DNA from: a virus
Reading direction: 5' to 3' (one strand)
DNA: 56,249 nt
IMG/VR virus record: IMGVR_UViG_3300047472_000033
Location: 1 to 56,249 of that record
The notes beneath the pieces were generated by a model that saw nothing but the letters and a program-made list of their open reading frames with translations, was not told the DNA's origin and made no database searches. Every line of letters begins with the position of its first letter. The stretch's first letter is position 1. Positions 7,474 through 41,653 of the stretch are shown in pieces. The position numbers and the translations under genes were made by a program.

Positions 7474-8648
7474 TGGAGCTTTATACTCTTGACCCGCTTC
7501 TCCGTCGTGACAAGGTCGTAGATAGGTACGAGTCGCTCATCTGGACCGAAAGGTACCAGAGTTACGGTGACTTCCAGTTGGATATTTTCTCGAACCTTGA
7601 AAGTCGAGGTCTGTTCAAGGCTGGGACTCTTCTCGCCATGAATCAGTCCAACTACGTCATGAAGGTAGAAACCACCGAAGACGGCGCCAATGCAAACGGA
7701 GAGAAAATACTCTCCGTCAAGGGACGTTCTTTGGAGGCCATCCTTTACGACCGGATCGCCAAGGAATCAACAAGCGATCTAACCGCGTCGCCCAGTTGGA
7801 CAATCACGGGTACTCCCGGAGTCATAGCACGCAAGATCTTCCACGATATTTGCGTGACTGGGATCCTTGATGTCGGAGATAAGATTCCTTTCATCAACGA
7901 GGGAACGTTTCTGGCAGCGGGAACAGTCTCAGAACCAGTCGACCCTATCACTGTCGAGATCGAACCTACGACAGTGTATGAAGCAATAGCCCAGATCTGC
8001 ACAACCTGGAACCTGGGCTTTCGTCTTCTTCGCCAGTTCGACATGTCTAAGTTGTGGTTCGATATTTACTCAGGTAGTAACCGGACCACAGCTCAGACGA
8101 CGCTCCCTCCAGTGGTGTTTGCCCCGGGGCTTGATAACCTCCAGAACACCAAAGAACTAACCACGATCGAGGGATCTAAGAACGTCGCGTACGTGTTTTC
8201 CCCCGCGGGGTTCAAGAAGGTATATCCGGATGATGTCGATCCCGGAATTGCTGGGTTGGAACGTCATGTCCTAGTAGTCAATGCGAGTGACATCGACAGC
8301 ACCAACCCCGATATTCCTGCCGCACTCACTCAACGTGGTAAGGAAGAGCTGGCGAAGTACCGAACGCAACAAGCCTTCGATGGCGAGATCAATCAGAACA
8401 GCTCGTACAAGTACGGCGTCCACTACAACCTCGGCGATATCGTCGAGACTCGTAATTCGGACGGCGTCACCAACAACATGCGAGTCACTGAACAGATCTT
8501 CGTGTCGGACAAGGAAGGCGAACGGGCATATCCCACGCTGACCATCAACGTCTTCATCAACACTGGTTCTTGGCTGTCTTGGCTCAACAACAAGACCTGG
8601 GCAGATCTCGACCCCGACACCACGTCGGTGTGGAGTAACCAGCCGTGA
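7473..8648 (+). CDS. Minor tail/baseplate protein (ReqiPepy6 gp37-like)
   Basis: 391 residues from the ATG at 7473 (a GTG at 7470 would add one residue); the start overlaps the previous stop (TGATG). The opening MELYTLDPLLRRDKVVDRYE, followed by a SLIWTERYQSYGDF segment, is characteristic of the Siphovirus ReqiPepy6 gp37-like family, which forms the tail-tip hub in many actinophages and is related to tail-associated lysin or endopeptidase domains. The C-terminal part contains VYIVSDKEG-like and GDIVETR segments typical of the same fold. Specific enzymatic residues are not evident. Confidence 0.75.
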   Translation: MELYTLDPLLRRDKVVDRYESLIWTERYQSYGDFQLDIFSNLESRGLFKAGTLLAMNQSNYVMKVETTEDGANANGEKILSVKGRSLEAILYDRIAKESTSDLTASPSWTITGTPGVIARKIFHDICVTGILDVGDKIPFINEGTFLAAGTVSEPVDPITVEIEPTTVYEAIAQICTTWNLGFRLLRQFDMSKLWFDIYSGSNRTTAQTTLPPVVFAPGLDNLQNTKELTTIEGSKNVAYVFSPAGFKKVYPDDVDPGIAGLERHVLVVNASDIDSTNPDIPAALTQRGKEELAKYRTQQAFDGEINQNSSYKYGVHYNLGDIVETRNSDGVTNNMRVTEQIFVSDKEGERAYPTLTINVFINTGSWLSWLNNKTWADLDPDTTSVWSNQP

Positions 8649-8663
8649 TATTCGCAAGGGAGG
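8647..8663 (+). promoter_or_regulatory. Ribosome-binding leader GATATTCGCAAGG
   Basis: The 13 bases GATATTCGCAAGG followed by GAGG lie just upstream of the start at 8670. The same 13 bases recur at 16913-16925 before the DUF6353 gene. It acts as a Shine-Dalgarno and may be a duplicated leader. Confidence 0.4.
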
Positions 8664-8669
8664 TTCGAT

Positions 8670-8909
8670 ATGGCTGTCGGAGATCAGGCAGCAGCTGCAG
8701 GGTTTTCAGTCGTCCCGGAAACGGGTGAACAAGGTCGTGTTCGGTGGGGCGCCCTCGAGATCAACCGTACGCGTGACTATCTCGCTACGGTGAAGGCGCT
8801 CATTCCTGTCGGTAAGGCGGGGTTCCGAACGGCTACTGGCATTTCTTCGGGTACGGCCGACCCGACCGGCGGCGCTGATGGTGACATCTACTTCAAGATC
8901 ATCAGCTAG
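8670..8909 (+). CDS. Small tail-associated protein, unknown function
   Basis: 79 residues, glycine/alanine rich, between two minor tail genes with short spacing, so almost certainly part of the tail operon. The centre (RTRDYLATVKALIPVGKAGF) and the tail end with a GTADPTGGADGDIYFKI pattern resemble short beta-hairpin segments seen in actinophage minor tail proteins. I recognise no named domain. It could be an adaptor between the gp37-like hub and the fibronectin-containing protein that follows. Confidence 0.65.
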   Translation: MAVGDQAAAAGFSVVPETGEQGRVRWGALEINRTRDYLATVKALIPVGKAGFRTATGISSGTADPTGGADGDIYFKIIS

Positions 8910-8917
8910 GAGGTGGC

Positions 8918-9901
8918 ATGACTGACTGGACAAAGACCTCTGGAACCAACGGCACGATGATGATCCGGGATACCGGAACTGACGTCGAGTTCTGGTTCAA
9001 AGCTGGATATTCCAGCGACTGGTACAACGGCCTGGACTTCAGTTACACGGCCCAGGGGTCTACCACCAACAAGACCATCAACTACCCCACAGGGGCTGAC
9101 TGGTACAAGATTGGCGAACGAACAGTAACCACCGATCAAACGGTTACGTTCAAGCTGATCACAGACACCAGTATCGGTGGCATCGGTGGTCCGACGACAT
9201 TCAGTCATGCCATCGATCGGGCTACGGTTCCACAGGCACCGGACAAGCCCGTCATATCTGGCATCAAGTCGACATCCGTAGTCGTGACATTCACGGACAA
9301 TGGTAATGGCGGCGCCGCTATCAACTCGCGGCAGATCGGATATGCCACCAGCACTACAGGTACAAAGACGCTCGTCAGTTCTGATGGTTCTACGACCATA
9401 TCGGGGTTGGACGACGGCGTCACGTACTACTTTTGGGCGAGGGTACACAACTCGGAGGGCTACAGCGCGTGGTCCTCCTATGTCAGTGCTAAGACGCTCA
9501 AAACACCCGATCCACCGAGCACACCTTTGCTGTCCAGTGTCACATCGACAAGCGTAGACGTTGCGTTCACTCCGAACAGCAACGGCGGCGCCGCGATCAC
9601 TGGATATCAGATCGGGTACGGAACGAGCTCCACTACTCCGACTACAACTGTCGCGGCCTCATCTCCGCAAGTAGTCAGTGGACTCGTTCCAGGAACCGTG
9701 TATTACTTCTTCGCCAGAGCCCAGAACTCTGTTGGTTGGGGTGCATGGTCCGGGGCAGCCAGTACTAGGACAGTCGCTGGAGCCTATATTCAGGTGGGGG
9801 CCACGGTAAAACTTGCAGTGCCCTACGTAAGAGTAGGTGGGGTCTGGAAGATTGCGGAACCATGGGTCCGCAGCGTGGGAGTTTGGAAAAGGACCGTCTA
9901 A
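8918..9901 (+). CDS. Minor tail protein with two fibronectin type III domains
   Basis: 327 residues. After a beta-rich N-terminal domain (about 1-105) come two tandem fibronectin type III domains, about 108-195 (starting APDKPVISG, ending VSAKTL) and 196-280 (starting PDPPSTPLLSSV, ending ASTRTV). Both carry the NGGAAI-x(4)-QIGY and GLxxGxxYYFxARxxNS signatures. The last about 45 residues repeat a YVRVGGVWK / WVRSVGVWK element. Such domains decorate tail tips and may bind cell-surface glycans. A GGAGG ribosome site precedes the ATG. Confidence 0.8.
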   Translation: MTDWTKTSGTNGTMMIRDTGTDVEFWFKAGYSSDWYNGLDFSYTAQGSTTNKTINYPTGADWYKIGERTVTTDQTVTFKLITDTSIGGIGGPTTFSHAIDRATVPQAPDKPVISGIKSTSVVVTFTDNGNGGAAINSRQIGYATSTTGTKTLVSSDGSTTISGLDDGVTYYFWARVHNSEGYSAWSSYVSAKTLKTPDPPSTPLLSSVTSTSVDVAFTPNSNGGAAITGYQIGYGTSSTTPTTTVAASSPQVVSGLVPGTVYYFFARAQNSVGWGAWSGAASTRTVAGAYIQVGATVKLAVPYVRVGGVWKIAEPWVRSVGVWKRTV

Positions 9902-9917
9902 CAGAAAGACATATTCT

Positions 9918-10316
9918 GTGGAAACTTGGCTGCAGGTAGTTGCCGCCTCGGTTGCCTCGGTTGTCGCATCATCAGGCTTCTGGGCCTTCATGCAGCGCAA
10001 GGGCGATTCGAAGTCTGCGACCACACGACTCTTGATGGGTCTCGCGTACGACAAGATTACAACATCGGGCGTCGAACATATCGAGCGGGGGTGGGTCACC
10101 AGGGACGAGCTCGAGGAATTGCACAATTACTACTACGGGCCGTACAAGGACCTGGGCGGGAACGGGGTGGCAGAACGGATCATGACGGAAGTACGTGGGC
10201 TCCCGATCAGATCGCACAGCAAGTACGCCAGCATATTCCAGCATCAGAACGAAGGGTTCGTCAACAATGTCAGAGTCATCACTCCCAACGAAGCCCAAGA
10301 CACCCCTGCTGGGTGA
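9918..10316 (+). CDS. Lysis-cassette membrane protein (holin-associated)
   Basis: About 132 residues from the GTG at 9918 with CAGAAAGA upstream. The N-terminus (WLQVVAASVASVVASSGFW) is one membrane span, followed by a soluble domain with LLMGLAYDKITTSG and ERGWVTRDELEELHNYYYGPYKDLGGNG. This arrangement is known from proteins encoded beside holins and endolysins in many siphoviruses of Gram-positive hosts. It overlaps the holin gene by 50 bases, so the two are translationally linked. It may be a holin partner or antiholin; that is inference from neighbourhood. Confidence 0.6.
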   Translation: METWLQVVAASVASVVASSGFWAFMQRKGDSKSATTRLLMGLAYDKITTSGVEHIERGWVTRDELEELHNYYYGPYKDLGGNGVAERIMTEVRGLPIRSHSKYASIFQHQNEGFVNNVRVITPNEAQDTPAG

Positions 10317-10641
10317 CACCACCTACGCGCTCGTCAAGCAGACGGCCGCGCTGGTTCTGCCGGCGGTCGGGGCGTTGTATTTCGCCCTGGCTCAGATCTG
10401 GCACTTCCCGAACTCCGAGGGGGTAGTTGGAACCATCGCCGCGGTGAACACCTTCTTCGGTGTGGTACTCGGAATGGCGACCCGATCGTACAACAATAGT
10501 GACACCAAGTACGCCGGCGATCTCGTGGTCGAAGACCACCCTGAGGACAGCACTCAGAAGATCATCGTAGCTCATCTGAACGAGCAGCCCGAGACCGTTG
10601 CCTCTCTGCACGAGGCGATCTTCAAGGTCAAGGGAGAGTAG
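10267..10641 (+). CDS. Holin, r1t-like
   Basis: 124 residues from ATG 10267, preceded by GAAGGG. Two hydrophobic segments at about 26-45 (TAALVLPAVGALYFALAQIW) and 56-75 (GTIAAVNTFFGVVLGMATRS) are joined by a short loop with FPNSEGVVG, the layout of phage r1t-type holins. These proteins form membrane lesions that time lysis. The endolysin gene is over 32 kb away at 42.96 kb, so the lysis functions are split between two regions. Confidence 0.7.
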   Translation: MSESSLPTKPKTPLLGDTTYALVKQTAALVLPAVGALYFALAQIWHFPNSEGVVGTIAAVNTFFGVVLGMATRSYNNSDTKYAGDLVVEDHPEDSTQKIIVAHLNEQPETVASLHEAIFKVKGE

Positions 10642-10645
10642 TACC

Positions 10646-10888
10646 ATGGCGTACGGTAAGACCGATGTCGAGAACCGTTTCGGGTTCCACAAAGCCACCA
10701 TCGAAGGCGAGAATGCCACACTTCCGGATCACCGGGACGTACGCATCCTGTTCCGAGAATTCGCGGAGAGGCTCGATGAGATTCTCGTGGATGGTCGGGC
10801 CAAATCGATAGCCTTCACGCGTCTCGAGGATGCCTCGATGTGGTCGCACAAGGCAATCGCGGAACGTGCGCCATTGATCATGGAGTAA
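10646..10888 (+). CDS. Acb2/Tad1-hairpin-like small protein (putative cyclic-nucleotide sponge, anti-CBASS)
   Basis: 80 residues. The sequence carries the pattern I associate with the Acb2/Tad1 hairpin family: an N-terminal (E/D)-x-NRFxFH element (NRFGFHKATIEGE), an R-x(3)-REFAERLDEIL helix, and a C-terminal helix ending FTRLEDASMWSHKAIAER, where family members have a LEEAxMWANAAIAR-like motif. Acb2 proteins are compact helical oligomers that bind cyclic di- and trinucleotides and so block CBASS (and related) immune signalling. The gene is the last of the lysis operon and lies just before the first cassette promoter. The family match is from memory and function is inferred. Confidence 0.65.
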   Translation: MAYGKTDVENRFGFHKATIEGENATLPDHRDVRILFREFAERLDEILVDGRAKSIAFTRLEDASMWSHKAIAERAPLIME

Positions 10889-10903
10889 CTTCTTTCACAG
10901 GGG

Positions 10904-10947
10904 TCGCAGGAAAAACAGGCCCTATAATGAGACCCCTACGGAAGGAA
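10904..10947 (+). promoter_or_regulatory. Start-associated promoter element 1
   Basis: TCGCA block, A-rich spacer, TATAAT at 10923-10928, then GAGACCCCTAC and a GGAAGG ribosome site before the GTG at 10953. One of 13 copies of the same 40-45 base element. The -10 is perfect, but no TTGACA-like -35 lies at 16-18 bases. Confidence 0.75.
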
Positions 10948-10952
10948 CCACT

Positions 10953-11249
10953 GTGTTCAATCTGAAGTTCAAGACCGACAAGACGATCGACCTCCTCGAG
11001 GACGAAATCGCGCGTGTGTTTGAAGCGATGAAACTTTTGGGAGTCGAGGACGAAGCCTACCCGGTGCTTCGCGAACACCTCACCATGCTCTACAAGCTCA
11101 AGGAAGTTGATTCCAAGAAGAAGCTGAGCACTGATGCGATGGTCGCGGCACTGACAAGCATCCTCGGCATCCTGATCGTCATCGGCTACGAGCACGGACA
11201 CGTGATCACCTCGAAGGCGTTCAACCTCGTCGGCAAGACCGTCAGGTAA
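10953..11249 (+). CDS. Small membrane protein of cassette 1
   Basis: 98 residues from a GTG directly downstream of promoter element 1. A soluble N-terminal half (two amphipathic helices, about residues 10-50) is followed by one membrane span at about 62-79 (AALTSILGILIVIGYE) and a short HGHVITSKAFNLV tail. I know this architecture (a span followed by YEH-x-HVITSKA) from hypothetical proteins of many actinophages, but no function has been assigned that I can name. It is the first and longest-known-looking member of the small-gene array and is followed by a strong terminator. Confidence 0.75.
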   Translation: MFNLKFKTDKTIDLLEDEIARVFEAMKLLGVEDEAYPVLREHLTMLYKLKEVDSKKKLSTDAMVAALTSILGILIVIGYEHGHVITSKAFNLVGKTVR

Positions 11250-11278
11250 CACCGATTACCCCGCAAGATCAATGACTG

Positions 11279-11325
11279 ATGGCGTGTAGACCCCTAGCAA
11301 GGTTTACACGCCATCTGTTTTTTTT
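11279..11325 (+). terminator. Intrinsic terminator after cassette 1
   Basis: A perfect 10-bp stem (ATGGCGTGTA at 11279-11288 with TACACGCCAT at 11305-11314), 16-base loop, then eight T at 11318-11325. The loop includes GACCCCTA, part of the shared leader motif, and AGCAAGGTT, which recurs in the small-RNA candidate near 19.04 kb. Confidence 0.9.
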
Positions 11326-11330
11326 GCCTT

Positions 11331-11373
11331 TCGCAGAAAATACACGGCCTATTATGAGACCCCTACGAAAGGC
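11331..11373 (+). promoter_or_regulatory. Start-associated promoter element 2
   Basis: TCGCAG, A-rich spacer, TATTAT at 11350-11355, GAGACCCCTAC, and ribosome site GAAAGG, ten bases before the ATG at 11379. Confidence 0.75.
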
Positions 11374-11378
11374 ACACC

Positions 11379-11645
11379 ATGAACAAGAACCAGAAAATCG
11401 GATTCGTCATGATGGCTATAGGAGCGATTACGCCAATCGTTCTCGATCATATCTCTCACAAGATCAAGCTGAACAAGACCATCAAAGCGATCGACGCCGA
11501 AACCACGGCTGAGGTCGACGCGATGCGTAAGGCCAGCTCGATTGTGAAGTTGATGATCGAGAACGGTTACTACGAAAATCGTTCCCGCGCTGACATGGAG
11601 AAAGATTTCGAGTTCTTCCGAATGGCTGTCCGCTACAACGACTGA
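11379..11645 (+). CDS. Small membrane protein of cassette 2
   Basis: 88 residues. One N-terminal membrane span at about 7-24 (GFVMMAIGAITPIVLDHI) is followed by a charged helical region (KLNKTIKAIDAETTAEVDAM) and an acidic-aromatic end. With a short positive N-terminus, the tail is probably either periplasm-facing or held at the membrane. It has its own promoter element and terminator. No recognised family; function unknown. Confidence 0.7.
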   Translation: MNKNQKIGFVMMAIGAITPIVLDHISHKIKLNKTIKAIDAETTAEVDAMRKASSIVKLMIENGYYENRSRADMEKDFEFFRMAVRYND

Positions 11646-11649
11646 TCTC

Positions 11650-11690
11650 AAAAGCCTCTGAATCCCACACGGGATTTATGCTTTGTCTTT
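11650..11690 (+). terminator. Cassette terminator 2
   Basis: Nested stems AATCCC/GGGATT (11661-11676, ACAC loop) and AAAGC/GCTTT outside, followed by a T-rich tail that runs into promoter element 3. Confidence 0.65.
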
Positions 11691-11733
11691 CGCAGGAAAA
11701 ACACGGGCTTTAATGAGACCCCTCTACGAAAGG
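11690..11733 (+). promoter_or_regulatory. Start-associated promoter element 3
   Basis: TCGCAGG, A-rich spacer, TTTAAT at 11709-11714, then GAGACCCCTCTAC (two extra bases compared with the consensus) and GAAAGG before the ATG at 11740. Confidence 0.7.
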
Positions 11734-11739
11734 CCAGCA

Positions 11740-12060
11740 ATGGACCTCAAGAAGAAGTTCAAAGACACCAAAGCCAAGATCAAGCACTACGCTCCCGAGA
11801 TCGCTGCTTTCGGCGTCGTCGTCACCCTGGCCGCAGCTGCCATCTACGCGATCAAGAAGGACCTCTCAGAAGGCATCGAAGGAACACTAGTGTTCATTCC
11901 CCAGCCCTCTGAAGAATCTGACAAGACCGAACGTGGAACTGTGTTCAAGGTGACTGGCGAAGACCGCGACAGGATCATCGGAGATACTACGTTCGATCTC
12001 TACGGCATCACTGATGTGGATGACTTCTACTACCTGACCAACGACCCCTCAGACGACTGA
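11740..12060 (+). CDS. Small membrane protein of cassette 3
   Basis: 106 residues from ATG 11740, placed correctly behind the GAAAGG of promoter element 3; an in-frame ATG at 11683 would lie inside the promoter and is rejected. A lysine-rich N-terminus precedes a membrane span at about 20-38, followed by a 65-residue soluble, acidic domain (FKVTGEDRDRIIGDTTFDLY, then TDVDDFYYLTND). The positive-inside rule predicts the acidic part outside the cytoplasm. No family recognised. Confidence 0.7.
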   Translation: MDLKKKFKDTKAKIKHYAPEIAAFGVVVTLAAAAIYAIKKDLSEGIEGTLVFIPQPSEESDKTERGTVFKVTGEDRDRIIGDTTFDLYGITDVDDFYYLTNDPSDD

Positions 12061-12074
12061 TCTCAAACGCCATC

Positions 12075-12104
12075 GGCCGGCCCCACACGGCCTTTGGTTT
12101 TTGT
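12075..12104 (+). terminator. Cassette terminator 3
   Basis: GGCC (12079-12082) pairs with GGCC (12089-12092), followed by TTTGGTTTTTG. A weaker member of the cassette terminator set. Confidence 0.5.
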
Positions 12105-12109
12105 CTGAT

Positions 12110-12151
12110 TCGCACCATTTACATGGCTTATTATGAGACCCCTACGAAAGG
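12110..12151 (+). promoter_or_regulatory. Start-associated promoter element 4
   Basis: TTCGCA, spacer with ATTTACATGGC, TATTAT at 12129-12134, GAGACCCCTAC and GAAAGG before the ATG at 12163. Confidence 0.75.
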
Positions 12152-12162
12152 ACCATATTCTA

Positions 12163-12375
12163 ATGTCTACTCCTCCTCGCTTCAACATCTCAGACGCTCA
12201 GCGCCACTTCACCGCCCCTGTGAACAAGGCCAACATCGCCATCGACGAGATCAAGCGCGAACACAAACTCGCCAAGATCAAGCTCGCTGGTACGTACGTT
12301 GGAATCGTTCTCGGCGCGGCGACGACCGCTTACGTCCTGATCAAGAAGCAGAGCAAGACCACTGAAGAAGACTGA
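12163..12375 (+). CDS. Small membrane protein of cassette 4
   Basis: 70 residues from ATG 12163; the longer in-frame start at 12133 falls inside the leader motif and is rejected. A soluble helical N-terminus (ISDAQRHFTAPVNKANIAID) is followed by a lysine-rich stretch, a C-proximal membrane span at about 41-60 (LAGTYVGIVLGAATTAYVLI) and KK plus an acidic end (TTEED). The shape suggests a tail-anchored inner-membrane protein with the N-terminus in the cytoplasm. No family recognised. Confidence 0.7.
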   Translation: MSTPPRFNISDAQRHFTAPVNKANIAIDEIKREHKLAKIKLAGTYVGIVLGAATTAYVLIKKQSKTTEED

Positions 12376-12390
12376 CCTTCACGATCAACC

Positions 12391-12427
12391 TCAAAGCCCA
12401 CTCCCCCTACACGGGGTTTGGGTTTCG
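12391..12427 (+). terminator. Cassette terminator 4
   Basis: CCCC, TACAC loop, GGGG (12413-12416) then TTTGGGTTT, with an outer AAAGCCCA arm able to pair with TGGGTTT. Typical of the cassette terminators. Confidence 0.7.
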
Positions 12428-12466
12428 CAGGAAATACATGGCCTATAATGAGACCCCTACGAAAGG
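12425..12466 (+). promoter_or_regulatory. Start-associated promoter element 5
   Basis: TCGCAGG, spacer with AAATACATGGCC, TATAAT at 12444-12449, GAGACCCCTAC and GAAAGG before the ATG at 12474. Confidence 0.8.
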
Positions 12467-12473
12467 CATTACG

Positions 12474-12767
12474 ATGCAGCACACTTACTCGTTGTACGGC
12501 TCGCCCCTCCACCTCATTCTCGAAGAGAAGGTTGCTGACGGCTACAATCGTGTACACCTCGGCTTCATCGAGGCGCAGAAGAAATTCAAAGAGGACTACG
12601 GAATCCAGTGGACTCCCGAACTCCCGATCGAAATCAATGCGTCCCCCGAAGACCTCAAGGCATACGACGACATCGCCAAGCTCCTGAACCTCCTGATCGA
12701 GATCAACGGCGGCAGCCTCGACATCAACGAAGACCAGTGCATCACCGCAACGCTTGACCGAGTCTGA
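12474..12767 (+). CDS. Small soluble protein of cassette 5
   Basis: 97 residues from ATG 12474 (the in-frame ATG at 12438 precedes the promoter -10 and is rejected). Unlike most cassette products it has no membrane span. It looks mostly helical, with GSPLHLILEEKVADGYNRVH near the start and two acidic segments. It uses the same promoter and terminator design as its membrane-protein neighbours. Function unknown. Confidence 0.65.
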   Translation: MQHTYSLYGSPLHLILEEKVADGYNRVHLGFIEAQKKFKEDYGIQWTPELPIEINASPEDLKAYDDIAKLLNLLIEINGGSLDINEDQCITATLDRV

Positions 12768-12771
12768 TCTC

Positions 12772-12806
12772 AAAGCCTCTGAACCCCCACATGGGGTTTA
12801 TGCTTT
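12772..12806 (+). terminator. Cassette terminator 5
   Basis: AACCCC (12782-12787) pairs with GGGGTT (12793-12798), and outer AAAGC with GCTTT, then the TTTCGCA of the next promoter element. Confidence 0.65.
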
Positions 12807-12849
12807 CGCACGTAATACATGGCTTATTATGAGACCCTACTGAATAGGA
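12804..12849 (+). promoter_or_regulatory. Start-associated promoter element 6
   Basis: TTTCGCA, spacer with AATACATGGC, TATTAT at 12825-12830, then GAGACCCTAC (one C fewer than consensus) and a divergent AATAGGA ribosome site before the ATG at 12856. Confidence 0.7.
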
Positions 12850-12855
12850 AACGCC

Positions 12856-13098
12856 ATGTTTGGAAACCAGAAGCGCGGTATCCGCATCACCCTCGACAAG
12901 ACCAAGAAGACCGAAAACTCCACCCCCGGAGAGAACGAGATAATTCACCCCCAAACTGTCAAGCTCATCGCTGAGCGAAGCAAGGAAGTTGTGAAGTATG
13001 TCGCTCTCACCGCTATCGGAGCCTACGCAGCCTTCAAGGCTATCGACACCGTGAGCCAGATCGCCATTAAGAAGACCAAGAGCGCAGACCAAGAGTAG
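12856..13098 (+). CDS. Small membrane-associated protein of cassette 6
   Basis: 80 residues. A basic N-terminal tail (about 1-20) and a polar linker precede an amphipathic to hydrophobic segment at about 45-66 (VVKYVALTAIGAYAAFKAID), then a lysine-rich end. Layout is like cassette products 3, 4 and 8. No family recognised. Confidence 0.65.
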   Translation: MFGNQKRGIRITLDKTKKTENSTPGENEIIHPQTVKLIAERSKEVVKYVALTAIGAYAAFKAIDTVSQIAIKKTKSADQE

Positions 13099-13104
13099 AT
13101 CACC

Positions 13105-13131
13105 AACCCGCCCCGCAAGGGGTTTGGGTTT
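13105..13131 (+). terminator. Cassette terminator 6 with GNRA loop
   Basis: AACCC-G-CCCC-GCAA-GGGG-TTT-GGGTT: a CCCC/GGGG stem closed by a GCAA tetraloop and an outer AACCC/GGGTT stem. Confidence 0.75.
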
Positions 13132-13134
13132 AGC

Positions 13135-13178
13135 TCGCATTAAAAACACGGGCTATTATGAGACCCCTACGATTGGAA
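13135..13178 (+). promoter_or_regulatory. Start-associated promoter element 7
   Basis: CTCGCA, spacer with TTAAAAACACGGGC, TATTAT at 13154-13159, GAGACCCCTAC and GATTGGA ribosome site before the ATG at 13186. Confidence 0.75.
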
Positions 13179-13185
13179 ACCAAAG

Positions 13186-13332
13186 ATGTTCGAGAACCTT
13201 AAGCGTTCCGCTGCCGCGATCAACCGTATTGTCAAGTCCCGCCAGAACCACAAGGCGAGGATGAAGATGATCAAGGAAGACGAGGAGTGGATGCTGAATG
13301 CCATCGACGAAGCTTTCAGGAATCTGAAGTAA
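13186..13332 (+). CDS. Small basic protein of cassette 7
   Basis: 48 residues (first residues MFENLKRSAAAINRIV, last FRNLK), stop TAA. It is highly basic in its first two thirds and contains no membrane span, so it could bind nucleic acid or an acidic partner. It is supported by its exact fit between promoter element 7 and its own GCAA-loop terminator. Confidence 0.65.
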   Translation: MFENLKRSAAAINRIVKSRQNHKARMKMIKEDEEWMLNAIDEAFRNLK

Positions 13333-13336
13333 CCTC

Positions 13337-13363
13337 AACCCGCCCCGCAAGGGGTTTGGGTTT
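13337..13363 (+). terminator. Cassette terminator 7 with GNRA loop
   Basis: Identical design to terminator 6: AACCC-G-CCCC-GCAA-GGGG-TTT-GGG-TTT. Confidence 0.75.
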
Positions 13364-13377
13364 CGTCAAAATGAGAG
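13364..13377 (+). promoter_or_regulatory. CGTCAAAATGAGAG leader copy
   Basis: The 14 bases CGTCAAAATGAGAG are shared with the leaders of the connector (43830) and portal (48713) genes. A shorter CGTCAAAATG core precedes or contains the capsid and head-closure start codons at 50622 and 52643. Confidence 0.5.
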
Positions 13378-13385
13378 TGTTTTGT

Positions 13386-13643
13386 ATGAGGATTAAGAAG
13401 GCGATCATCGCCCCCACGTACATCCAGGCACGTCTGTTCTGTCAATTCGAGGGATGGGACGTCAGAGACTTCGACATCCTCACGAGGCCTGAACACCTCC
13501 AAGGTCGTTTCTTCGACGAGTACGAAGTGTGGTGGCTAGACCGTATGTGGTCGTGCAGGACTCACGAAGACGTGGCGTTTATGGTTGAGATGGAGCGCCA
13601 GGCAAAGATTCGCGGCGCCGACCTTCGAAGATGGTGGACCTGA
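13386..13643 (+). CDS. Hypothetical protein
   Basis: 85 residues from ATG 13386 (or 90 from ATG 13371). By analogy with the leaders at 43830 and 48713 the first ATG is probably part of the ribosome-site leader. The sequence has an IAPTYIQARLFCQFEGWDVR segment and is rich in Trp, Arg and acidic residues, with no membrane span. It has no cassette promoter of its own and probably relies on read-through of terminator 7. I do not recognise a family. Confidence 0.6.
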   Translation: MRIKKAIIAPTYIQARLFCQFEGWDVRDFDILTRPEHLQGRFFDEYEVWWLDRMWSCRTHEDVAFMVEMERQAKIRGADLRRWWT

Positions 13644-13679
13644 TCCAAAAAATCCCGCCGTGGAATTTTCGGTATAGGG

Positions 13680-13723
13680 TCGCAGGGTTTACACACCCTA
13701 TAATGAGACCCCTACCGATTGGA
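13680..13723 (+). promoter_or_regulatory. Start-associated promoter element 8
   Basis: GTCGCAGG, spacer with GTTTACACACCC, TATAAT at 13699-13704, GAGACCCCTAC and GATTGGA ribosome site before the ATG at 13731. Confidence 0.78.
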
Positions 13724-13730
13724 CGCTAAC

Positions 13731-13952
13731 ATGCTCCAGACCATCAACGGACGCGAATGCTACGTCGCCGTATTGACCCAGTCTCCTCAGATCTATCTCC
13801 CTGTTGGGGATGACGGTGATCCGCAGCTTACGCCCTACGCGAATGCTCTGGACACCGCCATCCGTACGGGAGTGATCACGGAGCCCGGCAAGTACGGTAT
13901 CGAAGTGAAAACCGACGGTGCCTGGATGGCTTACGCCATTATCGAGAACTGA
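13731..13952 (+). CDS. Small soluble protein of cassette 8
   Basis: 73 residues from ATG 13731; a TTG at 13719 is part of the GATTGG ribosome site. It looks like a compact alpha-beta protein (INGRECYVAVLTQSPQIYLP early, then GKYGIEVKTDGAWMAYAIIE) with no membrane span. Together with cassettes 5 and 7 it shows that the array is not limited to membrane proteins. No family recognised. Confidence 0.65.
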   Translation: MLQTINGRECYVAVLTQSPQIYLPVGDDGDPQLTPYANALDTAIRTGVITEPGKYGIEVKTDGAWMAYAIIEN

Positions 13953-13957
13953 TCTCA

Positions 13958-13992
13958 CCACCCATCCCCGATCCCACACGGGGTTTGGGTTT
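13958..13992 (+). terminator. Cassette terminator 8
   Basis: CCCC (13966-13969) pairs with GGGG (13980-13983), followed by TTTGGGTTT; an inner CCC-ACAC-GGG stem is an alternative. Confidence 0.6.
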
Positions 13993-14009
13993 CGTCGAAG
14001 GAGAAAACC

Positions 14010-14216
14010 GTGAACCGTAGGGCTGTCATGTTCGTTATTTCGCTCGCTGCAGCGGTGGTCACCCACCAGAGTATTATGTTGAAGAAGGTCTATGACCAGG
14101 CATTCGATGCCGGCTGGGAAGGACGCAAGGCATATGAGCAGTGCAAGGCCGACCTCGGCAACGACGACCCTACTGTCGAAGAGTTTGAGTACTGGAAGAA
14201 GTACATCAGGGGATAG
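14010..14216 (+). CDS. Small membrane protein
   Basis: 68 residues from a GTG behind a GAAGGAG ribosome site. An N-terminal span at about 4-22 (RAVMFVISLAAAVVTHQSI) is followed by an amphipathic domain with the segment AFDAGWEGRKAYEQCK. It lies just after terminator 8 without a start-associated element, so it is likely expressed by partial read-through. No family recognised. Confidence 0.65.
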   Translation: MNRRAVMFVISLAAAVVTHQSIMLKKVYDQAFDAGWEGRKAYEQCKADLGNDDPTVEEFEYWKKYIRG

Positions 14217-14217
14217 G

Positions 14218-14260
14218 TCGCATGGAAAACACGGCTTATAATGAGACCCCTACGAAAGGA
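14218..14260 (+). promoter_or_regulatory. Start-associated promoter element 9
   Basis: GTCGCA, spacer with TGGAAAACACGGC, TATAAT at 14237-14242, GAGACCCCTAC and GAAAGGA before the ATG at 14267. Confidence 0.8.
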
Positions 14261-14266
14261 TCCATC

Positions 14267-14443
14267 ATGGACCGCGACGAGAACGAAACCCCTCCCGCTG
14301 ACGCCAAGACCATCATCGCTATTGTCGGTGTGGTGAGCATTGCTACATTCAGTGCTTATCACCTCGGCAAGCTCGGTGTGGACTGGGCGCGCGAAGGTAT
14401 TCGCTCCCGCAAGGAAAAGAAAACGAACTGGACCGTAATCTAA
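14267..14443 (+). CDS. Small membrane protein of cassette 9
   Basis: 58 residues from ATG 14267; the ORF can be read from 14222 but that lies in the promoter. An acidic N-terminus (MDRDENETPPAD) precedes one span at about 14-32 (KTIIAIVGVVSIATFSAYH) and a basic tail (GIRSRKEKKTNW), so the C-terminus is expected in the cytoplasm. No family recognised. Confidence 0.7.
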   Translation: MDRDENETPPADAKTIIAIVGVVSIATFSAYHLGKLGVDWAREGIRSRKEKKTNWTVI

Positions 14444-14448
14444 TCTCA

Positions 14449-14477
14449 AGCCCGCCCCGCAAGGGGTTTGGGTTTTC
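14449..14477 (+). terminator. Cassette terminator 9 with GNRA loop
   Basis: AAGCCCG then CCCC-GCAA-GGGG-TTTGGGTTTT at 14455-14474. Confidence 0.75.
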
Positions 14478-14489
14478 GGAGGGGGAGGC

Positions 14490-14609
14490 ATGAAGAACCA
14501 AGGCTCCAATTTCGCTGTAGTCCTCGGTTGTCTGGCACTAGCTGGTGAGCAATACTGGTTGGGTTTCTGGCTGATCATCATCGGGTGTGTTATTCGCGAT
14601 TATACCTGA
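14490..14609 (+). CDS. 39-residue membrane peptide
   Basis: Starts at ATG 14490 behind a strong GGAGGGGGAGG ribosome site. The product begins MKNQGSNFAVVLGCLALAG and is almost entirely hydrophobic with two Trp-rich turns, ending IRDYT. It is a one- or two-span membrane peptide. The strong ribosome site and fit between terminator 9 and promoter element 10 support it as real. Confidence 0.55.
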   Translation: MKNQGSNFAVVLGCLALAGEQYWLGFWLIIIGCVIRDYT

Positions 14610-14615
14610 TCATTC

Positions 14616-14659
14616 TCGCACGAAAAACACGGCCTATAATGAGACCCCTACCGATTGGA
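14616..14659 (+). promoter_or_regulatory. Start-associated promoter element 10
   Basis: CTCGCACGAAAAACACGGCC, TATAAT at 14635-14640, GAGACCCCTAC and GATTGGA before the ATG at 14665. Closest copy to the consensus. Confidence 0.82.
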
Positions 14660-14664
14660 ATACC

Positions 14665-14853
14665 ATGCCCATCAAGCAGAAGCTCTCTTCCGCCAAGAAC
14701 GCCGTTGCTCGCAACCGTGTCAAGATCCTGGGCACCATCGCCGTCGTATCCACGACTGTGGTGTTGATCCAGGGCCGAAACATCAAGATGTTCAACAAGT
14801 TCCTGGACGAGAAGGGCCTGACTGAAGAGTACTACTTCCTCAACGAAGAGTGA
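14665..14853 (+). CDS. Small membrane protein of cassette 10
   Basis: 62 residues from ATG 14665. A basic N-terminus (KQKLSSAKNAVARNRVK) leads into a span at about 20-36 (ILGTIAVVSTTVVLIQG), followed by a short KMFNKFLDEKGLTEEYYFLN tail. The acidic end resembles that of cassette product 3. No family recognised. Confidence 0.7.
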   Translation: MPIKQKLSSAKNAVARNRVKILGTIAVVSTTVVLIQGRNIKMFNKFLDEKGLTEEYYFLNEE

Positions 14854-14858
14854 TCGAC

Positions 14859-14892
14859 AACCCCTCCCCGCCCCACACGGGGTTTGGGTTTA
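14859..14892 (+). terminator. Cassette terminator 10
   Basis: CCCC-ACAC-GGGG (14871-14882) followed by TTTGGGTTT, with outer AACCCC able to extend the stem. Confidence 0.7.
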
Positions 14893-14909
14893 GCTTTTCG
14901 TCCCAGGGG

Positions 14910-14952
14910 TCGCATGAAAAACATGCCTTATAATGAGACCCCTACCGATTGG
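14910..14952 (+). promoter_or_regulatory. Start-associated promoter element 11
   Basis: GTCGCATGAAAAACATGCCT, TATAAT at 14929-14934, GAGACCCCTAC and GATTGGA before the ATG at 14960. A CATG-AAAAA-CATG inverted repeat lies in the spacer. Confidence 0.8.
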
Positions 14953-14959
14953 ATTCGCC

Positions 14960-15148
14960 ATGCTTAAGAAGCCCTCGAACCCCTCCGAAATTCTCGACGA
15001 CGACTACCGCCGTGCCTACGCTGCGCAGGAAATCAAGAAGACCATCCTCATCTGGGGAGCGGTCAAGCTCGCTTCCACTGCTGCCGTGGTCATCACGCTG
15101 AAGGTCATCGCCAAGAAGCTCGAGGCGAACGCCGCTTCCGAAGACTGA
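14960..15148 (+). CDS. Small membrane protein of cassette 11
   Basis: 62 residues from ATG 14960. A soluble N-terminus (SEILDDDYRRAYAAQEIKK) precedes one span at about 29-50 (ILIWGAVKLASTAAVVITL) and an AKKLEANAASED tail. Orientation is probably N-terminus in. No family recognised. Confidence 0.7.
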   Translation: MLKKPSNPSEILDDDYRRAYAAQEIKKTILIWGAVKLASTAAVVITLKVIAKKLEANAASED

Positions 15149-15171
15149 CATCCACCGCAAGACCTCTACCG

Positions 15172-15202: not shown

Positions 15203-15218
15203 CGCTGAAGGGAACAAA

Positions 15219-15403: not shown

Positions 15404-15413
15404 AGGAAGACCC

Positions 15414-15899: not shown

Positions 15900-15946
15900 T
15901 CGCATAAAAAACAAGCCCTATAATGAGACCCCTACTCCAGAATGGA
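15900..15946 (+). promoter_or_regulatory. Start-associated promoter element 12
   Basis: CTCGCATAAAAAACAAGCCC, TATAAT at 15919-15924, GAGACCCCTAC, then a longer, divergent gap with a weak GAATGGAA site before the ATG at 15953. Confidence 0.75.
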
Positions 15947-19758: not shown

Positions 19759-19807
19759 TCGCAGAAAAAACATGCTCTATAGTGAGACCCCTACTTTTTT
19801 CGAAAGG
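19759..19807 (+). promoter_or_regulatory. Start-associated promoter element 13
   Basis: ATCGCAGAAAAAACATGCTC, TATAGT at 19778-19783, GAGACCCCTAC, a T run, then CGAAAGG before the ATG at 19816. Last copy in the array. Confidence 0.72.
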
Positions 19808-37719: not shown

Positions 37720-37745
37720 AACAGATACCGTAGAGGCGAAATTAC

Positions 37746-37765
37746 ACGGGGTATAATAGAAGGGG
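37746..37765 (+). promoter_or_regulatory. Promoter before the nuclease/RNA-polymerase-like operon
   Basis: ACACGGGGTATAATAGAAGG with TATAAT at 37752-37757. As in the cassette elements an ACACGG block directly precedes the -10 and no -35 is obvious. A 13-base sequence AACAGATACCGTA at 37720-37732 just upstream is repeated in the origin region (37046-37058). Confidence 0.6.
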
Positions 37766-37805
37766 TAAGATAAGCCTCCCGTTTCGTCGATGAAAGAGGT
37801 GACAC

Positions 37806-38093
37806 ATGAAGGAATCTGAGTTCCAAACGAAGCTGATCAAAAAGCTTCGACACATGTTTCCTGACTGTGTCATACTCAAGAATGACCCCAGCTACTTGCA
37901 AGGCGTACCGGACCTCGTGATCTTTCACGGAGCCCGGTACGCCTTTCTCGAAGTCAAAGCGAGTGAGACCGCACCGTTCCGGCCGAACCAGCCTTACTAC
38001 CTTGAGCTGTTGAACGGCATGTCCTTCGCTGAAGCTATCTACCCTTCGAACGAACAGGAAGTACTCGATGAACTCGCAAGAGTATTCGGGTAG
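37806..38093 (+). CDS. VRR-NUC family nuclease
   Basis: 95 residues, GAAAGAGGTGA ribosome site. Minimal VRR-NUC domain: N-terminal E-x(4)-L helix (KESEFQTKLIKKLRHMFP), GVPDLVIF near 33-40 with the catalytic Asp, and FLEVKA near 48-53 with the E-x-K. Stand-alone VRR-NUC proteins are common in phages and cut DNA junctions or ends. It starts an operon with a second PD-(D/E)xK nuclease. Confidence 0.85.
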   Translation: MKESEFQTKLIKKLRHMFPDCVILKNDPSYLQGVPDLVIFHGARYAFLEVKASETAPFRPNQPYYLELLNGMSFAEAIYPSNEQEVLDELARVFG

Positions 38094-38103: not shown

Positions 38104-38715
38104 ATGAGTCTCGAAATCGTAAGGTTCGACGGATTCAACGCTCACTCAAGGCTAGACGGCTCACACGCCTTTCTCAGCCCCTCGAACTACCACTGGCTAA
38201 ACTACCCTCCAGACAAGCTCCTCGAGCGTCTAAGGACTGCTCAAGCTGCTTCTGAGGGTACCGAGCTCCATCTGCTTGCCGCGCTCAACATCAAGCACGG
38301 TACCAAGCTTATGGAGACAGACGAGAACAAGACGCTGTGGCTCTACGTCAACGACTGCATTCGATTCGGCATGTCACCCGAGCAGACCTTGTTCTACTCG
38401 ATGAACTGCTACGGTACGGCCGATGCTATCGGATTCGCACCAAACGAAGATGGCGAGAAGTACGCCGGCTACCTTCGCATCAGTGACCTGAAGACGGGTC
38501 TGACGAAGGCATCGGATAAGCAGCTCTACATCTACGCAGGGCTGTTCTGTCTGGAGTACGGCTACCTCCCGTATGAAATCGAAGGCGAACTCACCATCTA
38601 CCAGAACGGTCACCGAAACATCACTTTGATTGATCGGAACTTTCTGGCGTTCGTGTACGACAAGATCCAAACCTCACATGAGACCATCGAGAACTCGAAG
38701 GGAGGACTGCTGTGA
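38104..38715 (+). CDS. RecB/Cas4-like PD-(D/E)xK exonuclease
   Basis: 203 residues. Catalytic motifs GTADAIGF near 103, ISDLKTG near 127 (D-x-K) and QLYIYA near 140 (Q-x3-Y of the RecB family) are present and correctly spaced; a helical N-terminus carries an HLLAALNIKHG segment. No Fe-S Cys cluster is seen. It likely processes ends for recombination or replication together with the VRR-NUC protein upstream. Confidence 0.8.
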   Translation: MSLEIVRFDGFNAHSRLDGSHAFLSPSNYHWLNYPPDKLLERLRTAQAASEGTELHLLAALNIKHGTKLMETDENKTLWLYVNDCIRFGMSPEQTLFYSMNCYGTADAIGFAPNEDGEKYAGYLRISDLKTGLTKASDKQLYIYAGLFCLEYGYLPYEIEGELTIYQNGHRNITLIDRNFLAFVYDKIQTSHETIENSKGGLL

Positions 38716-41405
38716 TCATTGACGAAGAACATCGAGACGATCTAGTCATCGATGAAGAAGACCACCTCACGCATTACGGCATCCTCCGTAAGTCGGGTCG
38801 GTATCCATGGGGTTCTGGTGAAACTCCTCACGAGCGGGCCAACTCCTTCCTCGGTTACCTCAAGAGTTTCCGTAAAGAAGGAATGACCGACACTGAGATT
38901 GCTCATGCGTGGGGTATGACCACGTCTCAGCTTCGTGACACCGTCTCAATAGCGAATGAGGCGAAGAAGACTGCTGACATCGCTCAGGCTATGAAGCTGA
39001 AATATGATGTTGGCATGTCCAACGTCGCCATCGGTAAGAAGATGGGCATTGGCGAGTCCAGTGTTCGCTTGCTCCTGAAGCAGGGAGAAGCCGATAGGCA
39101 GCCGATTCTGGATACTACTGCTGAGATGCTTCGTCAAGAGGTAGCCAGCAAGAAGTACATCGATGTAGGTCGAGGCGTTGAGGTCCAACTTCACATCAGT
39201 GAGAAGAAGCTCAAGACCGCGGTCTCAGTCCTCAAGGAAGAGGGCTACAGCTTCCACTACATCCAAGTCCCCCAACTTGGAACCGGTAAGAAGACCAACA
39301 TAAAGGTGTTGTCTGCTCCGGGCACCACGTATGCCGAGGTCTCCAAGAACAAGGCTGAGATCAAGCAGATCCGTAAGAGCAGCCGAGATGGTGGTCGTTC
39401 TTACGATGAGATCCTTCCACCCATCTCGATCGATTCGAAAAGGGTCAAGGTTCGTTATGCCGAAGAAGGCGGAACTGATGCGGACGGCACGATCTATGTC
39501 CGCCCTGGCGTAAAAGACGTTTCCCTTGGAAGCGCCAAATATGCACAGGTTCGCATCGCTGTTGACGGTAGCCACTACCTCAAGGGTATGGCCCTCTACA
39601 GAGATGATCTGCCTGCCGGTGTAGACCTAGTGTTCAACACGAACAAGAAGAACACCGGGAATAAGCTGGATGCCATGAAGCCGATGAAGAAGGATCCTGA
39701 CGATCCTTTCGGTTCCATGATCGCTGACCAGCTCAAGGAGATGGGCCCTGATGGGAAGCTCCGCCCGAGTTCAGTAATGAACATCGTCAACCAGGAGGGC
39801 AACTGGGATGAGTGGTCCAAGACACTCTCGTCTCAGATGTTGTCGAAGCAGAAGCCTAGCCTTGCGGACCATCAGCTTGCGCTGACCCGTGAAGCCAAGC
39901 AGCGCGAGTTCGACACGATCATGAGTCTCACCAATGAGACCGTTAAGAAGCACCTTCTGGAGAAGTTCGCTGACGAGACTGATTCAGCTGCCGTTCACCT
40001 CAAGGCGGCGCACCTTCCTCGACAGAAGACGAAGGTAATACTTCCGATCAACTCGATGAAGGAAACCGAGATCTATGCACCGTCCTTCCGAGATGGTGAA
40101 AAAGTAGTTCTCGTTCGGTTCCCTCATGGACACATCTCTGAGATCCCTGAGCTCACCGTCAACAACCGTCACCCCGAAGCCAAGAAGATTCTTGGTAATG
40201 CACCTGATGCTGTCGGCATCCACCATGCGGTTGCCGAACGTCTCTCTGGTGCAGACTTCGATGGTGACACTGTACTTGTCATCCCGAACAACCTAGGCAA
40301 GGTCAGGAACAAGGCTCAGCTTGAGGAACTGAAGGGTTTCGATCCTCAGTCCGAATACAAGGGTTACCCTGGCATGCCCCAGATGACATCTCAGCAAAAG
40401 GGTAGTGAGATGGGGAAGGTTTCCAACCTCATCACGGACATGACTGCCCTTGGCGCACCTGACGCTGAGATCGCGCGAGCGCTCAAGCATTCCATGGTCG
40501 TCATCGATGCTGAGAAGCATGGGCTGGATTACAAGCGCTCTGCCATCGAGAATGGTATCCCAGCCCTGAAGAAGAAGTATCAGGGTGGTGCTACCAGAGG
40601 CGCTGCAACAATCGTGTCTAGGGCCAAGTCTACTGAGCGAGTGCTCGATAGAAAGCCCCGATCCGCCAAGGAAGGCGGACCGATTGACAGGGCTACTGGA
40701 AAACTGGTTTACACAGAGACCGGCGCTGAGTACACCAATGGCAACCCGAAGATGATCAAGTCTACGAAGCTTGCCGAAACGCACGATGCGCACACACTGG
40801 TTTCTGATCACCAGGCTCCTATCGAGAAGATCTATGCAGATCACTCGAACGCCCTTAAGAAGATGGCTAACGATGCGAGGTTGGCAACCCTCGACATCAA
40901 GGGAATCGTTCGCTCCCCCTCTGCCGCGAAAGCGTATGAGAAGGAAGTGAAGGATCTGGAAGCATCCCTCCAGGAGGCTCTCAGGAACGCCCCCTATGAG
41001 AGACAAGCCCAGCTCCTAGGTAACGCCATCTACCAGCTCAAGAAAGAATCGAATCCTGACCTGGACGATGCCGATCTGAAGAAGCTCAAGGCAAAGGCCA
41101 TTAAGGAAGCTCGTCTCAGGGTGGGTGCTGAAAAGCAGTCCATCGACATCACGCCCAAGCAATGGGAAGCCATCCAGGCTGGAGCTATCAGTAAGACACA
41201 GCTCGAGCACATCCTTGACAACACAGACGTGGACAAGATCAAGGAACTGGCTACACCTAGGGACAAGCCGGTTATGAGTGTGGCTGATAAGAACCGCGCT
41301 CTTCTCCTGCTTCGTGATGACAAGTACAGCCTTGCTGACGTGGCTGATCAGCTTGGTGTATCGGTGTCCACTCTAACTGCAGCCATGCGTGGTGATGCAG
41401 CATGA
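38712..41405 (+). CDS. YonO-like single-chain RNA polymerase candidate (DFDGD motif)
   Basis: 897 residues from GTG 38712 (GTGA overlap). The segment with LVRFPHGHISEIPE followed by HAVAERLSGADFDGDTVLVI matches the second double-psi beta barrel of the beta-prime RNA polymerase subunit, in which R-x-P, then N-ADFDGD binds catalytic Mg; the three Asp are residues 515, 517 and 519. Length and motif fit the YonO/crAss-like one-chain polymerases. The N-terminus has an LTHYGILRKSGRYPWGSGE tag-like stretch (19-37), then two predicted helix-turn-helix-like segments (MTDTEIAHAWGMTTSQLRD and SNVAIGKKMGIGESSVRLLL). A third similar HTH is at the C-terminus. Polymerase activity is inferred. Confidence 0.7.
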   Translation: MIIDEEHRDDLVIDEEDHLTHYGILRKSGRYPWGSGETPHERANSFLGYLKSFRKEGMTDTEIAHAWGMTTSQLRDTVSIANEAKKTADIAQAMKLKYDVGMSNVAIGKKMGIGESSVRLLLKQGEADRQPILDTTAEMLRQEVASKKYIDVGRGVEVQLHISEKKLKTAVSVLKEEGYSFHYIQVPQLGTGKKTNIKVLSAPGTTYAEVSKNKAEIKQIRKSSRDGGRSYDEILPPISIDSKRVKVRYAEEGGTDADGTIYVRPGVKDVSLGSAKYAQVRIAVDGSHYLKGMALYRDDLPAGVDLVFNTNKKNTGNKLDAMKPMKKDPDDPFGSMIADQLKEMGPDGKLRPSSVMNIVNQEGNWDEWSKTLSSQMLSKQKPSLADHQLALTREAKQREFDTIMSLTNETVKKHLLEKFADETDSAAVHLKAAHLPRQKTKVILPINSMKETEIYAPSFRDGEKVVLVRFPHGHISEIPELTVNNRHPEAKKILGNAPDAVGIHHAVAERLSGADFDGDTVLVIPNNLGKVRNKAQLEELKGFDPQSEYKGYPGMPQMTSQQKGSEMGKVSNLITDMTALGAPDAEIARALKHSMVVIDAEKHGLDYKRSAIENGIPALKKKYQGGATRGAATIVSRAKSTERVLDRKPRSAKEGGPIDRATGKLVYTETGAEYTNGNPKMIKSTKLAETHDAHTLVSDHQAPIEKIYADHSNALKKMANDARLATLDIKGIVRSPSAAKAYEKEVKDLEASLQEALRNAPYERQAQLLGNAIYQLKKESNPDLDDADLKKLKAKAIKEARLRVGAEKQSIDITPKQWEAIQAGAISKTQLEHILDNTDVDKIKELATPRDKPVMSVADKNRALLLLRDDKYSLADVADQLGVSVSTLTAAMRGDAA

Positions 41406-41653
41406 GCGTACTACTCAGTACCAAGGACAATCCATACAACCCACACACAGAGTGGGATGAGTGGCTGTCGTGGGACACCGACCATGGGTACCACACACTA
41501 TCTCTACTCGGTCGTGTGGTTCGCTCATCTGATGAACTCTCCGAGTACTGGCAACAGAGAGCAATCGAGGATGCGATGAATGAGATCGTGTCCTACAACG
41601 TGTCTGGCCAACACATCCTAGTCGAACCTCCAAAAGAGGTAGAGACTCCTTAG
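41402..41653 (+). CDS. Small hypothetical protein
   Basis: 83 residues, ATGA overlap with the RNA-polymerase-like gene. Trp/Tyr-rich (TEWDEWLSWDTDHGYHTLSL) with an acidic C-terminus. Coupling suggests a polymerase partner, for instance an inhibitor or sigma-like factor, but nothing in the sequence proves this. Confidence 0.6.
   Translation: MSVLLSTKDNPYNPHTEWDEWLSWDTDHGYHTLSLLGRVVRSSDELSEYWQQRAIEDAMNEIVSYNVSGQHILVEPPKEVETP

Follow-up and report, generated by a model that had tools for sequence, protein, structure and literature searches.

A Promoter-Like Motif Without a −35 Element

A single virus record of IMG/VR, analysed here over its whole length of 56,249 bases (the window), carries an array of repeated promoter-like elements in front of small genes, and the question that it raises is which transcription machinery reads them. 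The explanation favoured here, which we consider probable, is that the 13 copies serve as promoters for a single-chain two-barrel RNA polymerase that the phage itself encodes at 38712-41405.

The core of the motif is TCGCA-N6-ACA-N5-TATAAT-GAGA. The original prediction had counted 13 copies, and all of them are found on the + strand at the positions that it implied (10904-15935 and 19759-19794; Table 1). A further, degenerate copy at 37733, absent from that prediction, reads ACACGGGG-TATAAT-AGAAGGGG in the core-match count over the window. The description of the −10 as perfect holds only in part: a hexamer is present in every copy, and it is TATAAT in only 7 of the 13, with TATTAT in four, TTTAAT in one and TATAGT in one. 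A at position 2 and T at position 6 of the hexamer occur together in 12/13 copies.

Information in the motif is concentrated in three blocks, TCGCA, ACA and the hexamer plus GAGACCCCTAC, separated by constant gaps of N6 and N5 and with centres about 10 bases apart, which places them on the same face of the helix. TCGCA, expected about 14 bases before the hexamer, is exactly 14 nt from it in all 13 copies, outside the 16-18 nt that lie between a sigma-70 −35 hexamer and its −10. Positions upstream of TCGCA carry at most 0.2 bit each in the window matrix and show no conserved bases, which agrees with the predicted lack of a −35.

When scored on a 15-position core (TCGCA, ACA, TATAAT, G), the 13 + strand sites reach 14-15 of 15, and no site on the − strand of the window scores 12 or more. 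The position weight matrix that had been suggested as a check sets the copies far apart from the rest of the window, with 45.7 bits for the weakest copy vs 8.0 for the best unrelated place and a top score of 6.9 in three shuffles. By itself, TATAATGAGACC is not above chance (33 matches vs 27 expected with 3 mismatches allowed); only the full architecture exceeds it. Conventional TTGACA-N16-18-TATAAT promoters show no excess in 8000-46900 (8 vs 7.6; 3 vs 7.3). Hairpin promoters like those of N4 were considered and rejected: TCGCAG/CTACGA pairing is possible in some window copies, with a right arm, within CCCCTACGA, that is conserved only in close relatives.

The array has the tail/holin genes on one side and the replication genes on the other, a layout shared by relatives. 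Behind each of the 13 copies, 23-32 nt separate the end of the hexamer from the start codon of a small gene. The encoded proteins are 48-106 aa long, and a hydrophobic stretch of membrane-spanning quality is predicted in 10 of the 13. Terminator-like hairpins are enriched in the same region (41 vs 16 expected in 8000-27000). Two DUF6353 paralogues (phrog_2152), at 16937-17716 and 21297-22235, flank the end of the array and are kept in nearly all relatives.

Table 1. Positions of the motif copies, of the polymerase operon and of related features in the window and in other records.
Feature	Record	Position	Strand	Context
Motif 1 (TCGCA to GAGACCCCTAC), TATAAT	Window	10904..10939	+	Before orf 10953-11249
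Motif 2, TATTAT	Window	11331..11366	+	Before orf 11379-11645; strong terminator immediately upstream
Motif 3, TTTAAT	Window	11690..11725	+	Before orf 11740-12060
Motif 4, TATTAT	Window	12110..12145	+	Before orf 12163-12375
Motif 5, TATAAT	Window	12425..12460	+	Before orf 12474-12767
Motif 6, TATTAT	Window	12806..12841	+	Before orf 12856-13098
Motif 7, TATTAT	Window	13135..13170	+	Before orf 13186-13332
Motif 8, TATAAT	Window	13680..13715	+	Before orf 13731-13952
Motif 9, TATAAT	Window	14218..14253	+	Before orf 14267-14443
Motif 10, TATAAT	Window	14616..14651	+	Before orf 14665-14853
Motif 11, TATAAT	Window	14910..14945	+	Before orf 14960-15148
Motif 12, TATAAT	Window	15900..15935	+	Before orf 15953-16207
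Motif 13, TATAGT	Window	19759..19794	+	Before orf 19816-19968, then replication genes
Degenerate 14th motif, GAGGC-N6-ACA-N5-TATAAT-AGAAGGGG	Window	37733..37768	+	Before VRR-Nuc / Cas4 / RNA polymerase operon
VRR-Nuc-like nuclease gene	Window	37806..38093	+	Polymerase operon; kept in 14/15 relatives compared
Cas4-like exonuclease gene, phrog_3953	Window	38104..38715	+	
Single-chain two-barrel RNA polymerase (predicted fold), 897 aa, phrog_4291	Window	38712..41405	+	Proposed motif reader
N-terminal tag THYGILRKSGRYPWGSG codons, residues 20-36	Window	38769..38819	+	Resembles DUF7211 virion-module tag
DFDGD codons, residues 515-519	Window	40254..40268	+	Invariant, metal-binding
C-terminal helix-turn-helix codons, residues 861-888	Window	41292..41375	+	Sigma-70 region 4-like
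83-aa protein, phrog_4303	Window	41402..41653	+	Immediately 3' of polymerase; kept in 13/15 relatives compared
DUF7211-tag proteins	Window	44161-44706, 46477-46842, 46846-47547, 47550-48122, 48146-48700		
tRNA genes directly behind a motif copy, three phages	L003; L169; L180	14409-14483; 17342-17417; 2935-3006		
Copies before apparent non-coding stretches	L003; L004; L010; L174	14518, 21652; many; 23429; 14786, 14647		

The Polymerase-Like Protein

The suggestion that the protein encoded at 38712 is RNA-polymerase-like is borne out by a full-length match to phrog_4291 (1325 bits) and by a predicted core resembling QDE-1. An AlphaFold2 model built with 20 sequences was of moderate quality (pLDDT 72, pTM 0.48). 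In a fold search with residues ~237-732 of this model, QDE-1 matched with a Z of 10.6 over 373 residues at 4.3 A, RDR2 matched as well (Z within 10.6 to 9.1), and the RNA polymerases P74 gp62 and P32 gp64 of the P23-45 group of phages gave Z 9.1-9.4. In addition, the DFDGD sequence (DxDxD, residues 515-519) is invariant in the homologue alignments, so the active centre appears intact. Based on these core matches and on the invariant DFDGD, the protein is assigned, by predicted fold and active site, to the single-chain two-barrel RNA polymerases. A search of PDB sequences with the polymerase returned helix-turn-helix and repeat proteins only, and a profile comparison with YonO (probability 2.4%, 20 columns) gave no significant sequence similarity.

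Two helix-turn-helix-like stretches near the N-terminus and one at the C-terminus are kept in the homologues, and the C-terminal one also scores as sigma-70 region 4. Small stand-alone proteins or fragments that are similar to the N-terminal helix-turn-helix region occur in Qui (51094-51710), in contig G052 (23429-23989) and in contigs G055, G056 and G061, all of which also encode the full polymerase; such proteins could compete for or modify promoter recognition. Among the neighbouring genes, the VRR-Nuc-like gene is labelled 'VRR-Nuc domain protein' in the records of relatives, and the phrog_4303 protein is a possible partner of the polymerase.

Co-occurrence of Motif and Polymerase

The core pattern is found in at least 120 stretches of IMG/VR, vs 0 for a letter-reversed control. 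Among 35 IMG/VR contigs of at least 38 kb, selected by the motif alone, 33 encode phrog_4291, which is also present in Arthrobacter phage Qui. The two contigs without the polymerase contain the DNA polymerase and continue for about 3.0 and 11.5 kb beyond it; in the window the RNA polymerase gene starts 11.2 kb beyond the DNA polymerase. Because so little sequence follows the DNA polymerase, both contigs are probably incomplete and end before the usual place of the gene.

A wider comparison set a motif BLAST over 50,697 phage records against a tblastn search with the polymerase, counted by genus. Records with motif and with polymerase were equally numerous in Gordonia (55/55), Streptomyces (54/54), Rhodococcus (4/4) and Microbacterium (4/4), as well as in the saliva contig89 set (12/12). 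In Arthrobacter the motif BLAST reached 50 of the 95 polymerase-bearing records, and the remainder may carry drifted copies like those of Mudcat. TCGCA or ACA has likewise drifted in RavenPuff, 1706 and P078, phages that simple regular-expression counts miss. Each of the listed Listeria phage matches is a lone, incomplete copy within a gene on the opposite strand, and these matches were set aside as chance-like.

All motif-bearing related phages that were found have the same replication genes. Genomes with the replication backbone and without the polymerase were not seen, and the genus counts match; since the two never occur apart, presence and absence cannot single out the polymerase from the backbone. 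What points to the polymerase as the reader is that it is the only annotated shared protein found to combine an RNA polymerase active centre with helix-turn-helix motifs.

Variation of the Hexamer Beyond the Actinophages

The motif and the polymerase occur together in phages of Streptomyces, Gordonia, Lactococcus and Faecalibacterium. Across two bacterial phyla, the architecture of the motif accompanies one and the same phage backbone with its polymerase gene. In Lactococcus phage 1706 the array takes the form TTTTACA-N5-TATAGT-AGAAAGAAGG, with 13 short-form matches forward and 1 reverse (2.35 expected per strand). The array of Lactococcus phage P078, TTTTACATACCC-TATAAT-GAAAGG/GAGAGG, has 11 forward and 3 reverse matches where 1.35 are expected.

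Other lineages have departed further in the hexamer itself. Contig G043, whose polymerase is 46% identical, was searched with a pattern that held CGC, CA, the spacing and the end of the hexamer constant and left everything else free. This gave 23 forward sites and 0 reverse, with the hexamers CTTTAT (12), TATTAT (7), TTTTAT (2) and two others, so that 16 of the 23 are without A at position 2. The isolated Faecalibacterium phage FP_oengus has 12 forward sites and 1 reverse, and A is at position 2 in 0/12. A scan for the CTTTAT form found the polymerase in 13 of the 16 contigs examined; the other three comprise two fragments (17 and 27 kb) and one contig with a single match, probably due to chance. 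Twelve further contigs of this group were chosen for a CTTTAT copy, and their sites were listed allowing any base at hexamer positions 1 and 2; 63 of the 94 sites listed have no A at position 2. Sites in the CTTTAT group share their strand with the polymerase gene, and 13 genomes of the group have one site 0.9-1.5 kb upstream of that gene. Degenerate copies ahead of the polymerase operon are also found in several actinophages, as at 37733 in the window.

Sigma-70 reads the −10 element through the A at position 2 (the −11 A) and the T at position 6. In FP_oengus and the related contigs, the upstream elements and their spacing are retained although the hexamer is mostly CTTTAT or TTTTAT, and this combination indicates that, in those lineages if not elsewhere, the motif cannot be read by way of host sigma. 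The original proposal that a phage factor recognises the motif is well supported by this pattern and by the architecture shared across phyla. Of the three candidates named in that proposal, an activator, an alternative sigma and the polymerase-like protein, the polymerase is favoured, and an activator is less probable.

The activator alternative holds that the host holoenzyme with the main sigma factor reads TATAAT while a phage activator bound to TCGCA and ACA replaces the −35. In its favour, the actinophage hexamer is near-consensus and is followed by GAGA, the published notes on phages Vardy and Conley call the motif a sigma-70 −10 (PMC9671010, PMC10868162), and other core proteins without known function exist. 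The persistence of the upstream elements where the −11 A has been lost argues against it, however, and so does the fact that, unknowns aside, no annotated core protein but the polymerase has a DNA-binding regulator fold. Together with the tRNA positions considered below, these observations make the activator rather unlikely.

Suggested Position of the Transcription Start

In three phages a tRNA gene lies directly behind a copy of the motif, and its predicted 5' end is 8 nt behind the hexamer in ReqiPepy6, 3 nt in G043 and 1 nt in FP_oengus, where the anticodon is unclear. These genes suggest that RNA starts about 1-4 nt after the hexamer, and the window of 4-12 nt originally given for the start may therefore be off. 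If the tRNA ends are right and the tRNAs are transcribed from those copies, the ends in G043 and FP_oengus are too close for a sigma-70 start, which speaks further against a host polymerase assisted by an activator. Some copies precede GAGAAGG... and putative small structured non-coding RNAs rather than coding genes.

A second alternative is that the motif is used twice, by host holoenzyme early through TATAAT and by the phage polymerase later, with the phage enzyme acting alone in the CTTTAT lineages. This would account both for the near-perfect hexamer of the actinophages and for its loss elsewhere, and it would solve the start-up of transcription without packaging a polymerase. In actinophages, host RNA polymerase could use the motif too, given a hexamer that makes a good sigma-70 −10 and a GAGA that looks like a good discriminator. 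On the other hand, there is no −35, the spacing does not fit and host use has no separate support, and we regard this alternative as quite improbable. It is very improbable that the motif is instead a regulatory or leader element, either a repressor operator like the stoperators of cluster A or an element associated with translation starts, because despite the nearness of most copies to ribosome sites the motif also precedes tRNA genes and apparently non-coding stretches, lies behind terminators and always in the direction of transcription, and has the ribosome site outside its conserved core at a variable distance.

Proposed Mechanism and Timing

If the phage polymerase is the reader, it would recognise double-stranded DNA at TCGCA and ACA, which are about one helical turn apart, and melt the T-rich hexamer. 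No host sigma factor would be needed, and RNA would then begin at the purines right behind the hexamer (G of GAGA). The unit driven by each promoter would be small, mostly a membrane-protein gene and often with its own terminator, and motif 13 may lead into the replication genes. Through the degenerate copy at 37733, the polymerase would increase its own expression. Since there are no copies at the late genes or over most of the genome, the regulon would be a partial one.

The polymerase, probably carried in the virion, would transcribe the genes of the array early. In the deposited record of phage 1706 (EU081845) the polymerase, orf75, is named 'structural protein', and the ReqiPepy6 record repeats this name. 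All homologues compared start with a tag like HYG...SGRYPWGSG. Five otherwise unlike proteins of the window, around the terminase and portal genes, share the N-terminal sequence HYGVKGMKWGV (Pfam DUF7211), which is perhaps a virion-packaging tag. The likeness between the two tags is one seen by eye, as the Pfam DUF7211 model does not match that of the polymerase, and a literature search on the polymerase in virions returned nothing usable. Based on the label in 1706 and on the tag resembling that of the packaging module, the polymerase may be carried in the virion and injected with the DNA. It is then plausible, by analogy with P23-45, that it switches on the array of small genes at once (PMC10770324).

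A broader reading can be proposed only tentatively, with somewhat less than even confidence: a widespread family of phages would carry in their virions a sigma-free single-chain two-barrel RNA polymerase with helix-turn-helix domains of its own. This enzyme would read TCGCA-N6-ACA-N5-hexamer in hosts of two phyla, start RNA 1-4 nt behind it, and switch on both its own operon and a scattered set of early units of one gene each.

Relationship to Known Systems

Single-chain two-barrel RNA polymerases of phages are distantly related to the cellular polymerases, and only for a few has the way in which they locate promoters been worked out. P23-45 encodes two such enzymes, gp96 in the virion and gp64 outside it, and two promoter motifs have been mapped by experiment (PMC10770324). 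Like the window, this system combines a phage single-chain two-barrel enzyme with DxDxD, matched by the predicted core at the Z values given above, and its own conserved promoter motif repeated before early genes, only in relatives that encode the enzyme. In contrast, phrog_4291 belongs to another sequence family, is not fused to the tape measure protein and has helix-turn-helix motifs at both ends; the promoter sequence differs, and one such enzyme is seen per genome.

In the Gordonia cluster DJ phages Vardy and Conley, a repeated TATAAT motif of 50 bp or 43 bp has been reported, with five copies in single phages, and was read as a sigma-70 promoter (PMC9671010, PMC10868162). By its description this is the same motif, being intergenic and mid-genome, containing TATAAT and accompanied by small membrane-protein genes and terminators. 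Those accounts draw no link to a polymerase and do not follow the motif outside cluster DJ. Searching the literature by motif sequence returned no phage paper, and no earlier link between motif and polymerase or tracing to other hosts was found in a literature that excludes most subscription journals. While the motif was already known in two Gordonia phages, what is new is a set of promoters proposed for one more family of two-barrel polymerases in phages.

In more than 200 sequenced phages, many of them propagated on laboratory strains in teaching programmes, a predicted promoter and its predicted reader are available together with natural variants of both, which makes a little-known polymerase family easy to test. 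If the proposal is true, it explains the TATAAT-bearing repeats without a −35 in these genomes and provides a compact orthogonal expression pair for actinobacteria, and the labels 'HTH DNA-binding protein' and 'RNA-dependent RNA polymerase' need correcting. It would also describe an RNA polymerase whose upstream recognition bases stay the same while the hexamer that it melts drifts.

The second of those labels derives from QDE-1 and the RDR enzymes, onto which the predicted catalytic core superposes. Unlike the phage enzyme, which gives no sign of copying RNA, these proteins act in RNA interference. T7 offers a resemblance of another kind, with one enzyme, a compact promoter, a start right after TATA and a likeness by eye between TATAATGAGACC and its TATAGGGAGACC; its enzyme family is unrelated, and the resemblance is probably fortuitous.

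YonO of Bacillus phage SPbeta is likewise a single-chain two-barrel, DNA-dependent phage RNA polymerase, whose promoter sequence was left open in the paper describing it (PMC5467207). Unlike the enzyme proposed here, it transcribes a late operon from one start. No copy of the motif is found upstream of yonK in SPbeta (L178). Several ATTTATGAGG/TTTATGGC-like strings occur there that resemble the 3' half of the FP_oengus-type promoter; they are without the upstream elements and probably reflect chance.
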